NCBI GenBank assembly: GCA_002401455.1
Contig: NVTE01000004.1
Coordinates: forward strand, 62,001 to 126,000
DNA length: 64,000 nt
Origin: Alphaproteobacteria bacterium
GTDB taxonomy: Bacteria > Pseudomonadota > Alphaproteobacteria > Sphingomonadales > Emcibacteraceae
Reading direction: 5' to 3'
This document shows positions 26,827 to 32,493 of this stretch, one piece after another (positions within the stretch are counted from its first letter, which is position 1; the number at the start of each line of letters is the position of its first letter). The translations under genes were made by a program, and so were the position numbers. The notes beneath the pieces were generated by a model. The model did not search any database and had not been told where the DNA came from. It saw only the letters and a list, made by a program, of their open reading frames with translations.

Positions 26827-26965
26827 GGTACTTTTGTAAATGGTCAATACGCGAAAATAATACTTATTACAATTTAATTGATTTGTGTTAAGAATTACGG
26901 AGTTAAAACGATCGTATGAATTTTAATCGCCCAATGAATACCACAAAATGAAAAGGAATAAACAG

Positions 26966-27880
26966 ATGCCCTATGATTTTACCGGACAGGTTGCCATTAT
27001 TACCGGATCAGGCGGGGGACTTGGCCGCGCCCATGCGTTGGCGTTTGCCCGGCGGGGCGCGATGGTGGTGATTAATGACCTGGGCGGTGCCCGGGACGGG
27101 GCCTCAGCCGATGGCAGCTCTCTCAGCCCGGCCCAGAAAGTCGTTCAGGAAATCACGGATCTGGGCGGCAAGGCGATCGCCAATGGTGGCAATGTGACCT
27201 CGGAAACCGATATGCAGGCCATGGTGGAGCAGACCCTGTCCGCCTTTGGCCGCATCGATATTCTGGTCAATAATGCCGGTATTCTGCGCGACAAGACCTT
27301 CAGCAAGATGACGGTTGAGGATTTCAAGATGGTGATGGACGTGCATCTGATGGGTAGCGTCATTGCCACCCGGGCGGTGTTGCCGACCATGAAGGATCAG
27401 GGTTACGGCCGGATTGTCATGACCACGTCGTCCAGCGGCCTTTACGGCAATTTCGGCCAGAGTAATTACGGGGCGGCCAAGCTGGGCCTGATCGGCCTGA
27501 CCAATACCCTGAAGTTGGAGCTGTTTAAGTCGGGCATCCGGGTCAATGCCTTGGCACCGGTGGCCGCGACCCGCATGACCGACGATATCATGCCGCCGCA
27601 GATGCTCGACCTGCTGACCCCGGACAGTGTTTCGCCGGCGGTACTTTATCTTTGTGGCAAGGACGCCCCGACCGGGGAGATCATCACCGCCGGGGCTGGT
27701 ACCTTTGCCCGGGCACAGATATTGGAAAGTGAAGGGGTATTTCTCGGGCCTGACGCGACCCCGGAAATGATCGCCGACCAGTGGGACAGCCTGTCCGACA
27801 TGTCGACGGCCAAACCGTACCGGCAGGGCTCGGACCAGAGCCAGAAATTCGTTGCCAACGCCTTCGAGGATAAAGCGTAG
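26966..27880 (+). CDS. Short-chain dehydrogenase, MFE-2/(3R)-hydroxyacyl-CoA dehydrogenase-like
   Basis: A 304-residue SDR with TGSGGGLG (13-20) for NAD binding, the NNAGI motif (102-106) and the catalytic serine plus Tyr168-x3-Lys172. The opening GQVAIITGSGGGLGRAHAL and the VINDLGG segment resemble the dehydrogenase part of multifunctional enzyme type 2, which acts on (3R)-hydroxyacyl-CoA; the true substrate is not certain. I use the ATG at 26966 because AAAAGGAATAAACAG precedes it; the ATG at 26948 lies upstream of that Shine-Dalgarno. It is the last GC-rich gene before the AT-rich island. Confidence 0.87.
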   Translation: MPYDFTGQVAIITGSGGGLGRAHALAFARRGAMVVINDLGGARDGASADGSSLSPAQKVVQEITDLGGKAIANGGNVTSETDMQAMVEQTLSAFGRIDILVNNAGILRDKTFSKMTVEDFKMVMDVHLMGSVIATRAVLPTMKDQGYGRIVMTTSSSGLYGNFGQSNYGAAKLGLIGLTNTLKLELFKSGIRVNALAPVAATRMTDDIMPPQMLDLLTPDSVSPAVLYLCGKDAPTGEIITAGAGTFARAQILESEGVFLGPDATPEMIADQWDSLSDMSTAKPYRQGSDQSQKFVANAFEDKA

Positions 27881-28058
27881 TATCGGGAAAATTACATTAT
27901 TTTAAAGGAATATTAAAAATTTATACCTCAAATAGGTGCTTATTTGTAGTTTAATTGCTATTTAAGCTTGTAAAGGTATTTTTTTATTGTATCGAGAATC
28001 CAAATCTGATTCAATAGAACAAAATATGCTTGTCTTTTGGGCTGGGAAGAGAAAAATA

Positions 28059-28865
28059 ATGGAATTGCCAAGACCACATTTTGAAAACCCTCCTATCAAT
28101 GAGGTGGCGGTTTGTGTAGTTTTTAAAAAAATTGATGGGTTTCAAGCTGTACATTTTGGAGAGTTTTGGACAAAAATTAGAAGACACTTTCCCAAAACCC
28201 AGGATGTTGCGCCTTTGGATCATGTCAGTACAGCAGGTGGTAATGGTGTTGAAATTCAAATTTCAGCAAAACCACCGCTACCCCGAGTTTGGTTTGAAGG
28301 CATTTCGCGTCATGAGCTTATCCAATTACAAGATGATCGGTTTATATTTAATTGGAGAAAACTTGAAGATGGCCTTTACCCTAGGTTTGAAGAAGTTTTT
28401 AATAATTTCAAAAAATATTGGGACTTATTTGTACAATATATAAGTGAAAGTGGGTTGGGAAATATTTCAATCACTCAATATGAGTTAACGTATATTAATA
28501 TTATTAATTTGAAAAAAACCCCCTTAACAGTAATTGATCTTGCGAATGTTTTTAATGGCAATGCCTTGATAGGGCATAAGGATTGTTTTTTGCCCAGTCC
28601 TTCGGGGTTTAATTGGCAAACATTTTATCCATTTCCTGATAATCAAGGTTCATTAAACATTAATGCGATCAGTGGGCTCTCTCAGGAGAATAAATCTATA
28701 GTAGCGCGTTTAGACATGGTTGCCAGAGGTACTCCGCAAGAGAAAGAGAATATTGAAGCGGGGCTTGAAGAGTGGTTTAATATGGCTCATTTATGGATTG
28801 TGAATGGGTTTGTGGCCATTACGACTGAAAATGCTCAACGTGAATTATGGGGAAGAGTGGAATGA
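28059..28865 (+). CDS. TIGR04255-like protein, first gene of an AT-rich three-gene module
   Basis: A 268-residue protein. The start LPRPHFENPPINEVAVCVVF and the later YPRFEEVFNNFKKYW segment resemble TIGR04255, a sporadically distributed family of about 260 residues with no known function. No signal peptide or membrane segment is seen. The ATG at 28059 follows GGGAAGAG by 9 bases; a TTG at 27987 would add 24 residues. The stop overlaps the next gene by 4 bases (ATGA), so the two are translationally coupled. Base composition is far below that of the neighbours (13 G/C in 60 bases at 28381-28440), a sign of recent transfer. Function unknown. Confidence 0.75.
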   Translation: MELPRPHFENPPINEVAVCVVFKKIDGFQAVHFGEFWTKIRRHFPKTQDVAPLDHVSTAGGNGVEIQISAKPPLPRVWFEGISRHELIQLQDDRFIFNWRKLEDGLYPRFEEVFNNFKKYWDLFVQYISESGLGNISITQYELTYINIINLKKTPLTVIDLANVFNGNALIGHKDCFLPSPSGFNWQTFYPFPDNQGSLNINAISGLSQENKSIVARLDMVARGTPQEKENIEAGLEEWFNMAHLWIVNGFVAITTENAQRELWGRVE

Positions 28866-29431
28866 AAATGCAAAGAGAAAGTAGTATTTCAGACAATAGG
28901 TTCATACCTATCAAAGAGATGAATATAATAGCTTCATCTTCTGTGGGATATTTTCCACAGACAACTCCTGAAATAAATTCTTTAAAAAGGCGAACTAAAG
29001 ATACGCCGAAGTATTATTCTGATGATATTACAGGTACAGGTTGGACCCCTTTAGAAATGAAGACTTTAACTCCACATGATTTGGACCATTATCGTACAAA
29101 AAGTAAACTTACAGACTTGATTCAAAAATTTAAAAGAGTGCCCTTTTTTCATGATTCTGATCAATGTGCAAATAAAGGGGCTGCTGATAACGCGCTTAAA
29201 TTACTTTGTCAGATGGATGAAAAATTGTTACCGAAAGTGGCGGTTGATGAAGATGGTGAAATCATTTTTGCTTGGAATGTGGAAGAGCGCAATATAGTTC
29301 TTACTTTTGAAGAAAATTTGTGGCATTTTTTTGAGAAAGAAGGGTCTAACCCCCCAAATTATTATGATGAGGAGTCTTATGTGAATGGTGAAATTCCAAA
29401 TTTTGTATGGGAAAAAATACCAACAAAATAG
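28862..29431 (+). CDS. Unrecognised protein, second gene of the AT-rich module
   Basis: A 189-residue protein that I cannot assign to a family. It starts at an ATG overlapping the previous stop, with GGGGAAGAG a few bases upstream. The N-terminal 60 residues look polar and possibly unstructured; then come LTPHDLDHYRTKSKLTDLIQ and a short domain with VAVDEDGEIIFAWNVEERNI, a strand-rich pattern. There is no membrane segment or nuclease motif. One of three coupled genes with the same low GC; it probably works with the TIGR04255-like protein. Not previously described as far as I can tell from sequence alone. Confidence 0.6.
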   Translation: MKMQRESSISDNRFIPIKEMNIIASSSVGYFPQTTPEINSLKRRTKDTPKYYSDDITGTGWTPLEMKTLTPHDLDHYRTKSKLTDLIQKFKRVPFFHDSDQCANKGAADNALKLLCQMDEKLLPKVAVDEDGEIIFAWNVEERNIVLTFEENLWHFFEKEGSNPPNYYDEESYVNGEIPNFVWEKIPTK

Positions 29432-29441
29432 GGGGTAACTA

Positions 29442-29909
29442 GTGAGCGAAGATGAACAATCTATACCTGCTTCACATCATATAAGCCGACACATATTCTT
29501 TCCAATTATGTATGATAGTGATCAGAATTTAGTTTGGGGTAATATTTTTATGTTCCAGCAAAAATATGATTATTGTGAATCTGTTGTTTGGCGAAAGTAT
29601 GCGACATTAGAAGAAGTGCATGAATTAGGTTGTGCCAAAGCCGAACGTGACAGAAATATAAATAATAAGGATAGAAAATACGGGGGTGCTTCCACAGCTA
29701 AAGTAGGTTCTGCACGAGAGATTGTTGTTCTTGATAGTAATGCTTCAATTGAAGTAGAGCATGATCCTAGTGAAAACCAAGGTATACATCATGCCCATAT
29801 TAGATTGCTGTTGCCAGTTGGAGTCAGAAAATTAAAACCAAGCGAGAAAACAGAGTTAAGGTTGATATTATCTGATGTTTTTTCAGATTTTGATCCATAC
29901 CCTTTGTGA
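29442..29909 (+). CDS. Unrecognised protein, third gene of the AT-rich module
   Basis: A 155-residue protein starting at GTG (29442), preceded by GGGGGTAAC. I do not recognise a family. The C-terminal half holds the segment QGIHHAHIRLLLPVGVRKL, with an HHxH cluster that could bind metal, and ends with an acidic DVFSDFDPYPL tail. No signal peptide. It begins 10 bases after the second gene, the last of the module; the next gene is on the same strand but 169 bases away and has ordinary GC, which marks the right border near 29910. Confidence 0.6.
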   Translation: MSEDEQSIPASHHISRHIFFPIMYDSDQNLVWGNIFMFQQKYDYCESVVWRKYATLEEVHELGCAKAERDRNINNKDRKYGGASTAKVGSAREIVVLDSNASIEVEHDPSENQGIHHAHIRLLLPVGVRKLKPSEKTELRLILSDVFSDFDPYPL

Positions 29910-30078
29910 TTTGACACCTCATTACTGCCACAGTATTTCTATTATCTGAATCTTCCCCGATATAAATAAAATTAAACGTTTGTTTAAATACAAATTAGAG
30001 TTAAGCTTTTTCTCAGTGTAAAAGGGGTCAAAGGGTGGGGCTTCTTTCCGTGTAACAGAATATTGGGAGTATAGTTCA

Positions 30079-32493
30079 GTGAAAAAGAATATCGGTTTAT
30101 GGGGCGCGAGCCTGTTGGTGGTGGCGGGGCTGCTCGGCTCCTGTGCGGAACAGAAAGCACCGGAAGATACCTACCGGGCCGAGGTGGTGCGCACCAGCTT
30201 TGGCATTCCCCATATCACGGCCGATGATTTTGGCAGTCTGGGATTTGGCGAAGGCTTTGTGGCGGCGGAGGATCATGTCTGCAATATCGCCCACAGCATC
30301 GTTGTTGCCCGGGGCGAACGGGCGCTGTATCACGGCGTGGGGGAAAAAAACAAACATCTGATGAGCGATATGGTCATTCGGGCCCTGGGTATTCCGGCCA
30401 ACGCGGCCGAGGATTTTGCCGCTCAGTCGAAGGAAAACCAGCAATGGATCACCGGCTATACCGAAGGCTATAACAAATATATCCGCGAGGTCGGGGTCGA
30501 TAACATCACCTCATGGTGCAAAGGCGCCGACTGGGTCCGGGAAATCACGCCGGAAGATCTCTTTTCCCGCTTTCAGGTGCTGGCCCAGACTGCGCCCCGG
30601 GTCGCCGGCATGATTGTCTCAGCCAAACCGCCGGCAGATAAAGCTGACGCAGCGGCTCTTGAAGTACCCGTTCAGACCTTTGCCGAAATGGCTGATGACC
30701 TGCGCGCCAGCCAGATGGGCTCTAACGGCTGGGCCTTTGGCAAGGACCGGACCGAGAATGGCCGGGGCATGCTGTTGGGCAACCCCCATTACCCCTGGAC
30801 CGGCACCAGCCGTTTCTGGGAAAAACATCTGATCATTCCGGGCAAGATGAATATTTACGGGGCCCATTTGATCGGTGCGCCGGGGGTGGCCATTGGCTTT
30901 AACGAGAATATTGGCTGGACCCATACGGTGTCCAATAGTGAGCGGGTGGTGTTCTACAAGCTGGACCTGGTGCCCGGCGACCCGACCAGCTATTATTATG
31001 ACGGCGAGCCACGCAAGATGACCGCCCGCAAGATGACAATTTCCGTCAAGGGCGAGGACGGCACCGTGACCGAGCAGGAGCAGAGTGTCTGGTTCAGTCA
31101 TTATGGCCCCATGGTCAGCCTGCCCAATGCGCCCTGGACTGAAAAACAGGCGTTGACCATGCGCGATGCCAATGCCGGCAACCAGAATCTGCTCGACCAG
31201 TGGAAAGCCATGGATCTGGCGCAGGATATGGACGCCTTTAAAGACGCCCACCGTAAATGGAATGCCCTGCCCTGGGTTAATACCATGGCCACCAGCAAGG
31301 ACGGCCGGGCAGTGTTTATCGACGGCTCCAATGTGGGACGCCTGAGTGCTGAGGCCATTGCTCTGTGGCAGGAGAGGACCAAAAGCGACCCGCTGACAGG
31401 GGAATTTTTCAACGGCATGGGTCTGATCCTGCTCGACGGCAGCGATAGCCAGTTCGAATGGCAGGCGCATCCGGAGGCCCGGGTTCCTGGTATCGTGCCC
31501 TATGTGGAACAGCCAAAATATGACCGCAGTGACTATATCTTCAACGCCAACGACAGCCATTGGCTGACCCATGTTGAAGAACCCCTGAACGGCTATTCCC
31601 CGCTGTTTGGCTCGGAACAGGCGGCCCGAAGCCTGCGGACCCGGATCAATGCCAAGCTGGTCAGTGATACTTCACCGGACGGCCCGGCGGGGGTTGACGG
31701 TAAATTCTCCCTGAAGGAAATGCAGCAGGCGCTGTTTTCCAACCGCAGCCTGACGGCGGAATTGCTGCTCGATGAGGTGGTCGCTGCCTGTACAAAGGTA
31801 ACGTCGGTAATTGTTGACGGTGAAGAGGTTGACCTTGCAGGAGCCTGCACGGCTCTGAAGGGCTATAACAAACACCTTGATCTGGATAGCACGGGTGCGG
31901 TTCTGTTCCGGGAATGGATCACTCAGTATAAATATACCGAAACCTTTAAAAACGATAAGCTGTTCAAGTTGGCGTTTGATCCGGCCGATCCGGTCAATAC
32001 CCCCCGGGGTCTGGCGGACGAGGGTCTGGCTCTGAAAAATCTGGCCAAAGCGGTTCAGGTGATGACCCGGGCGGGTCTGGCGCTTGACAGCAGTCTTGGT
32101 GAGGCTCAGTTTGTCTACCGGGGGGCAGACCGAATTGCGGTTCATGGTGGGGAAAATGCCGAGGGCATTGCCAATATTATGGCTCAACGGATTTATGACA
32201 CCCAGGCTCATCAGCAGAGGGGAGCCAAGGTTGAGGGCAGTAAAATGCTCACCGACAAGGGCTATCTGGTCACCCATGGTGCCAGCTTCTTGCTGAGCCT
32301 GAGCTATACCGATGATGGTCCGGTGGCGGAAGCTTTCCTGACCTACGGCCAGTCCGGCGACCCGACGTCTGTCCATTATACCGACCAGACCAAATTGTTT
32401 TCCCAGAAGCAATGGCGTCCGGTGCGCTTTACAAAACAGGATATCGCCAAGGATATGAAATCATCCCGGGTTCTGACCGGCCCCCGGAAATAA
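30079..32493 (+). CDS. Penicillin acylase-family lipoprotein (N-acyl amide hydrolase)
   Basis: An 804-residue Ntn-hydrolase precursor. The start is GTG at 30079 with TTGGGAG upstream. Residues 1-22 form a lipoprotein signal with the lipobox LGSC (Cys22), so the mature protein should be membrane anchored and outside the inner membrane. The chain is expected to self-cleave between Gly213 and Ser214 in QMGSNGWAFG, exposing the catalytic serine; GNPHYPW follows. PvdQ-type and AHL acylases belong to this family, so acyl-homoserine-lactone or another N-acyl amide may be the substrate; this cannot be decided here. Length is usual. It lies just beyond the AT-rich island. Confidence 0.87.
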   Translation: MKKNIGLWGASLLVVAGLLGSCAEQKAPEDTYRAEVVRTSFGIPHITADDFGSLGFGEGFVAAEDHVCNIAHSIVVARGERALYHGVGEKNKHLMSDMVIRALGIPANAAEDFAAQSKENQQWITGYTEGYNKYIREVGVDNITSWCKGADWVREITPEDLFSRFQVLAQTAPRVAGMIVSAKPPADKADAAALEVPVQTFAEMADDLRASQMGSNGWAFGKDRTENGRGMLLGNPHYPWTGTSRFWEKHLIIPGKMNIYGAHLIGAPGVAIGFNENIGWTHTVSNSERVVFYKLDLVPGDPTSYYYDGEPRKMTARKMTISVKGEDGTVTEQEQSVWFSHYGPMVSLPNAPWTEKQALTMRDANAGNQNLLDQWKAMDLAQDMDAFKDAHRKWNALPWVNTMATSKDGRAVFIDGSNVGRLSAEAIALWQERTKSDPLTGEFFNGMGLILLDGSDSQFEWQAHPEARVPGIVPYVEQPKYDRSDYIFNANDSHWLTHVEEPLNGYSPLFGSEQAARSLRTRINAKLVSDTSPDGPAGVDGKFSLKEMQQALFSNRSLTAELLLDEVVAACTKVTSVIVDGEEVDLAGACTALKGYNKHLDLDSTGAVLFREWITQYKYTETFKNDKLFKLAFDPADPVNTPRGLADEGLALKNLAKAVQVMTRAGLALDSSLGEAQFVYRGADRIAVHGGENAEGIANIMAQRIYDTQAHQQRGAKVEGSKMLTDKGYLVTHGASFLLSLSYTDDGPVAEAFLTYGQSGDPTSVHYTDQTKLFSQKQWRPVRFTKQDIAKDMKSSRVLTGPRK

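Follow-up and report, generated by a model that had tools for sequence, protein, structure and literature searches.

The window analysed here is a stretch of 64,000 nucleotides, and at positions 28059-29909 it holds three complete genes, all on the plus strand. The first, T (28059-28865), encodes a TIGR04255 family protein of 268 aa that was identified by its NCBIfam match and modelled with AF2. The second, M (28862-29431), encodes a protein of 189 aa with a variable N-terminus and a conserved C-terminal domain (P124, G132, W138), and the third, S (29442-29909), a protein of 155 aa in which an alignment of homologues reveals the near-invariant residues R16, S47 and H117. T and M overlap by 4 bases and the gap between M and S is 10 bases, in agreement with the coupled set of same-strand genes described in an earlier note on this DNA. 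On the left lies an SDR gene (26948-27880, plus strand) and on the right an acylase gene (30079-32493, plus strand), both named from a reading of the sequence alone; the insert extends at most over 27881-30078, the interval between the SDR stop codon and the start of the acylase gene, with no strand assigned.

The composition of the three genes sets them apart from these neighbours: their G+C content is 0.37 (T), 0.34 (M) and 0.36 (S), and at third codon positions it is 0.29, 0.26 and 0.24, against 0.75 in the SDR gene and 0.68 in the acylase gene. Over 1850-base windows of the 64 kb the mean G+C is 0.528 (sd 0.038), the minimum of 0.352, at 27901, falls on the cassette, and the lowest value elsewhere is 0.446. 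The local counts of G/C given in the earlier note, 13 of 60 bases at 28381-28440 and 31 of 60 in the SDR gene at 27241-27300, were right on recount by eye. Neither promoter-like sites (6 observed against 7.6 expected) nor terminator-like sites (0 against 2.0) are in excess.

We compared the locus across 16 genomes of the genus, the window's genome included. TIGR04255 is present in three of them, again counting the window's own, so ordinary vertical inheritance in all close relatives is not what we find. The acylase gene was found in nine: SDR and acylase genes stand side by side without the cassette in four congeners (G106, G104, G041 and G111), G063 and G078 show no SDR gene upstream of the acylase gene, where 4.8 kb and 1.9 kb of sequence are available, and the contig stops inside the acylase gene in G057 and G069. 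A sister trio occupies a different site in two congeners, G106 and G063, where it is flanked by genes for a methyltransferase and for MutT (both named by eye); its identity to the window's proteins is 47-48% for T, 26-28% for M and 42-46% for S. MutT was found in 15 of the 16 genomes, and the methyltransferase-MutT slot holds the trio in two of these, is closed in seven including the window's genome, and holds another insert in three; for the remaining three the stretch shows no methyltransferase gene. Because the SDR-acylase junction is closed in four congeners and the sister site is closed in the window's genome, we have two sites with reciprocal filled and closed states, and the trio entered the SDR-acylase junction as an insert. 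Together with the composition, this supports the lateral gain that had been proposed from the sequence alone. Among the matches listed, no direct repeat of at least 12 bases has one copy in each intergenic flank.

The other inserts in the methyltransferase-MutT slot are also AT-rich. In G081 (L148:3001-4754) the slot holds a gene for a 513-aa anti-phage dCTP deaminase (NF041025, 452 bits against a cut-off of 400) with a 54-aa ORF, and in G098 (L150) and G057 (L151) it holds a gene for a membrane-like protein of 272-286 aa, which in G057 has no NCBIfam or PADLOC match. A small ORF near MutT in G078 (L149) is similar to the 54-aa ORF of G081.

The trio recurs in distant genomes. TIGR04255 itself is found in 20 of 337 genomes of the class and 30 of 398 of the phylum (overlapping samples). 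At 29 of 50 TIGR04255 loci examined an M-like gene lies downstream on the same strand, and 27 of these have an S-like gene there as well, leaving 21 loci without M and 23 without S; these counts use E<0.05, with three M matches at 0.005-0.013 and with profiles partly built from the same loci, and two further TIGR04255 matches of the phylum search that have no locus stand outside the 50. As a check on circularity, all 14 S matches below 1e-3 outside the training set adjoin M. The coupled set of three genes, which the earlier note had advised looking for in distant genomes, is present there, and the second and third genes do occur beside TIGR04255 elsewhere. In 26 aligned loci the gene order is identical, with gaps of -71 to +36 bases (longest ORFs), and the distance matrices of T, M and S correlate (r 0.50, 0.52 and 0.68; permutation p 0.0002 each): the three proteins diverge together. 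Some loci are weak or broken, such as L051 (weak M, no S), L160/L071 (a 93-aa piece of S) and L046 (an internal stop in the T gene).

Scanning named genomes yielded 16 T loci, of which nine have M and seven of these also S; at the two M loci without S the contigs end within 310 bases after M. These T-M loci belong to Alphaproteobacteria, Acidobacteria, Planctomycetota and one unclassified bacterium. Six of the other named loci have a gene for a 'TQACDLE' protein instead, and one has neither. T is part of more than one kind of module: one with M-S, one with the TQACDLE protein, and one with an HTH protein and a 'QTCD' protein.

The TQACDLE protein is encoded at all six loci of its set (L096, L097, L100, L101, L105 and L109), together with a small protein in five. 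The HTH and QTCD proteins accompany TIGR04255 at L035 and L038, and at L036 the HTH protein is seen with the contig end near. At L099:9372-9845 the second gene after the TIGR04255 gene is PIN-domain-like (VapC-like, by eye).

Mobile elements carry the trio as well. On a plasmid of Mycobacterium paragordonae it lies directly after mobF, annotated as TIGR04255 and two hypothetical proteins, and the genes listed after it are one hypothetical and one for type IV secretion; the profile links are 1.9e-10 for M and 4.2e-11 for S. The IMG/VR contig L112 carries the trio beside genes that are phage-like by eye. A search with the window T gave one plasmid record and none in phages, and the T alignment matched none of the viral contigs. 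The window M and S matched nothing in plasmids and viral contigs, and M homologues used as queries matched no viral contig, plasmid or phage; of the S homologue queries one matched two viral contigs and a second none, and none was matched in plasmids. The T-M-S cassette is a genuine mobile unit that recurs across genomes; its role we infer.

One possible explanation is that the trio is a toxin-antitoxin-like module for the addiction or stabilisation of mobile DNA, with M as antitoxin, S as toxin and T as regulator and with no specific role against phage. The position directly after a relaxase gene on a plasmid, the tight coupling of T, M and S seen in the distance matrices, the presence of TIGR04255 in so few genomes of the genus, and trio flanks that are not enriched in defence genes (see below) all fit it. 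However, the sister site in one congener holds an anti-phage enzyme, homologues of M-S stand with HsdM-like genes and an AbiLi-like ATPase, and a TBP-like third partner, as T appears to be, is unusual for addiction modules. On balance we place this explanation somewhat on the unlikely side.

M and S also occur apart from T. A profile of M matches 21 loci in 19 of 259 genomes, and in the stretches fetched S follows M in 19 while T precedes it in six. Since M stands without T at 15 of the 21 loci, and at 13 of those with S, the M-S pair is independent of T. Other partners are found for T as well as for the pair. This bears on a second alternative, in which T would be the effector, binding or processing nucleic acid, and M-S a regulatory or immunity pair that restrains it. 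The several module types of T and its invariant polar residues (see below) would suit such a role, but the independence of M-S from T speaks against it, and we consider this arrangement decidedly improbable.

Some of the first genes that stand before M-S in place of T come from families known, or proposed as candidates, in defence. At L092:881-3339 the gene of an AbiLi-like ATPase (3.1e-77; other ATPase models match too) is followed by the M-S pair; this links the pair with AbiL (PADLOC AbiLi), but the window trio has no ATPase. At L085-L087 an HsdM-like gene (by eye) is followed by PDC-M32A with a C-terminal M domain and then by S, and at L093 the first gene encodes a 242-aa protein that matches nothing in PADLOC or NCBIfam. 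In PADLOC, M relatives hit PDC-M32A in its C-terminal part, at positions 257-370 of 375 (best 1.2e-8), and the S family is linked by profile (6.3e-5) to the gene after PDC-M32A, which we take as PDC-M32B from its position. PDC-M32 is itself a phage defence candidate, named in the literature searched by one paper, in Sinorhizobium prophages (PMC12429752).

For the window's own proteins the connection is less direct. At E<=5 both M and S are without a match in Pfam, NCBIfam and PADLOC, which agrees with the earlier remark that only the first product belongs to a recognisable family; S has no match in PHROGs, where M has two, both at E 0.1. We therefore reject membership of the window proteins in PDC-M32, as well as a fusion of the PDC-M32A N-terminal domain to the window M, which is 189 aa long and whose relatives have matches that start at model position 257 or beyond; in the window trio T stands where PDC-M32A has its N-terminal domain. 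Profile methods, which the note had advised, did find relatives through intermediates: L045 is reached by the window-type profiles of M (3.5e-6) and S (1.8e-23), and so is L053 (0.028 and 2.2e-9). Direct profile comparison is weak (0.005 and 0.02 for Mwin-MP, 0.14 and 0.05 for Swin-SP), and it is by intermediates, gene order and shared columns that the window M and S appear to be tied, indirectly, to the large families. Profiles of M and S homologues found no relative among PDB sequences, one search giving no more than a pair of unrelated rows, at 0.07-0.1.

T clearly belongs to TIGR04255, with 69 bits against a cut-off of 30 over model positions 2-251 of 252. The NCBIfam entry is described merely as 'TIGR04255 family protein', without a function, and the term 'TIGR04255' is absent from the literature searched, which comprised the papers of one library. 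What is added here for the family is the three-gene unit with M and S and the predicted fold. The AF2 model of T (16 sequences; pLDDT 86.4, pTM 0.87) has two repeats of strands and helices, which suggest a duplicated TATA-binding-protein-like (TBP-like) fold. The top five rows of a Foldseek search of the PDB all belong to TATA-binding protein, at prob 0.94-0.99 and E-values between 1.5e-3 and 6.2e-3 (nothing is below E 0.001), where for the complexes 7egb, 7z0o and 7o4i the matched chain was taken as TBP from its length; the TM by target is 0.39-0.42 and the rmsd 12-13. Later rows, among the best 50 of 1428, are mostly helix-grip proteins (PYL, PR-10, aromatase/cyclase). Among viral models in BFVD an unnamed 202-aa protein ranks first (4.7e-8, TM 0.60), ahead of a Marseillevirus TFIID (4.3e-5). 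The T profile found no relative among PDB sequences. Polar residues such as E15, R76, Q89, Q91, N98 and E142 are invariant in 17 aligned T proteins.

TBP-like domains in bacteria are found in proteins that act on nucleic acids: that of RNase HIII binds RNA/DNA hybrids (PMC4132731), and others occur in some RNase LS proteins, RNase LS being treated among RNA-based defence systems (PMC3710099). T differs from both in standing alone, its model comprising two repeats without an additional domain, and we found no sequence link between T and the TBP-like domains of RNase HIII or RNase LS.

In M, conservation is concentrated in the C-terminal domain: W138 (codon at 29273-29275, plus strand) is kept in all 31 aligned proteins, P124 in 30 and G132 in 29, and the next-best polar column, D100, is Asp in 25. 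A search of 196 genomes of the order with the window M returned its own genome, two congeners and G189 (E 0.009), the last of which we take for chance.

In S, the residues R16 (codon 29487-29489), S47 (29580-29582) and H117 (29790-29792), all read on the plus strand, are each kept in 34 of 35 aligned proteins, the exceptions being L037 for R and S and L041 for H. The earlier note had pointed to a possible metal cluster, HHAH, in this protein. The motif is there, but only its second His, H117, is conserved, the first being kept in 5 of 35 proteins and the third in 4, and we reject the cluster. The window-type S profile gives four matches in 337 genomes of the class: the window's own, those in G204 and G255, which adjoin TIGR04255, and one in G386 (E 0.006). 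We attribute this last match, which lies in a 450-codon open frame, to chance; G386 is not among the genomes listed with TIGR04255.

Because alignments of the window S with distant S proteins are visibly wrong in the N-terminal half, a homologue, the S protein of L110, was folded in its place. Its model (five sequences) has a pLDDT of 88, with two of the five models poor (46 and 39). In a Foldseek search of the PDB the first six rows, and seven of the first ten, are ADP-ribosyltransferase-fold proteins, all of them KptA/Tpt1 but one; the matches are not significant (best E 0.78, TM about 0.44). We take 1s21 and KptA to have the ADP-ribosyltransferase fold. Judged from this model of a homologue, S weakly resembles an ADP-ribosyltransferase. 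The KptA/Tpt1 tRNA 2'-phosphotransferases are the best structural matches of the L110 protein (E 0.78, TM 0.44), which is shorter, at 138 residues against about 180, and has no sequence match to them; the active-site residues of KptA differ from R-S-H as well.

Of the purposes considered for the trio, phage defence seems to us the likeliest. How it would act is more tentative: it is possible, and this is the reading we propose with some reserve, that the mobile three-gene cassette defends against phage by growth arrest, with T as sensor, M as antitoxin or adaptor and S as effector. T, if its model is right, would bind a nucleic acid or nucleoprotein made in infection; M would bind S and either keep it inactive or couple it to T; and S, a putative toxic effector, would upon release modify a cellular target and halt growth. 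Other first genes, such as the AbiLi-like ATPase or the PDC-M32A N-terminal domain beside type I restriction-modification, could replace T before M-S. A parallel in working, though one drawn by analogy, is CmdTAC, a set of three genes for an ADP-ribosyltransferase, an antitoxin and an infection-sensing third part (PMC11618068); as that set works, a three-gene scheme of this kind would be feasible. The likeness extends to the number of genes and the manner of working, but CmdC is a chaperone and T is TBP-like in the model, where TBP comes first and no chaperone is named among the best 50 of 1428 PDB matches, and S is only weakly like an ADP-ribosyltransferase.

The neighbourhood of the trio gives a less favourable answer. 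Within about 6 kb of the trio loci, known defence genes are not enriched over control stretches, as judged from 21 trio loci, which supplied 135 flanking proteins, and 13 control stretches, which supplied 131. At 1e-25 the flanks match mad3 (2) and MzaC (1), and the controls match mad3 (3) as well as type III restriction, RtcR and type II methyltransferase. The flanks being no richer than the controls, the trio does not sit in islands of known defence genes in this sample, and we drop the idea of a defence island and with it the expectation that the trio would be found near defence genes. The wider suggestion of a small accessory system, perhaps in defence, stands in part: the dCTP deaminase at the sister site gives it indirect support, as do the AbiLi-like ATPase and PDC-M32, which adjoin M or are fused with it, but the flanks do not. 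The same flanks would suit a trio that takes no part in conflict at all and is a small regulatory or metabolic accessory operon spread horizontally. Such an operon would not be expected to show so patchy an occurrence, with changes of site inside one genus, or to share its slot with a dCTP deaminase, and the other first genes before M-S fall in defence families or candidates; we regard it as unlikely.

Our preferred reading, phage defence by a sensor, an antitoxin or adaptor and an effector, can be carried further. M-S might be a plug-in immune effector pair recruited behind unrelated sensors: T as a TBP-like sensor of nucleic acids, the AbiLi-like ATPase, or the N-terminal domain of PDC-M32A where it stands next to type I restriction-modification. 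S might then represent a new, minimal class of ADP-ribosyltransferases whose active site is R-S-H, and TIGR04255 might serve in immunity as a sensor formed by a complete, duplicated TBP fold. In this extended form the proposal is a speculative one to which we give little credence. The placement of TIGR04255 in a recurrent trio, its predicted TBP-like fold and the ties of its two partners to PDC-M32 and AbiLi neighbours turn three families without a function into one testable system.

Two further arrangements were noticed. At L165 nucleotidyltransferase-like and HEPN-like genes (by eye) come after S and an M gene that is short, and at L111:3206-3646, on a prophage-like contig, a lone S gene stands beside a CI/LexA-like repressor gene (by eye).
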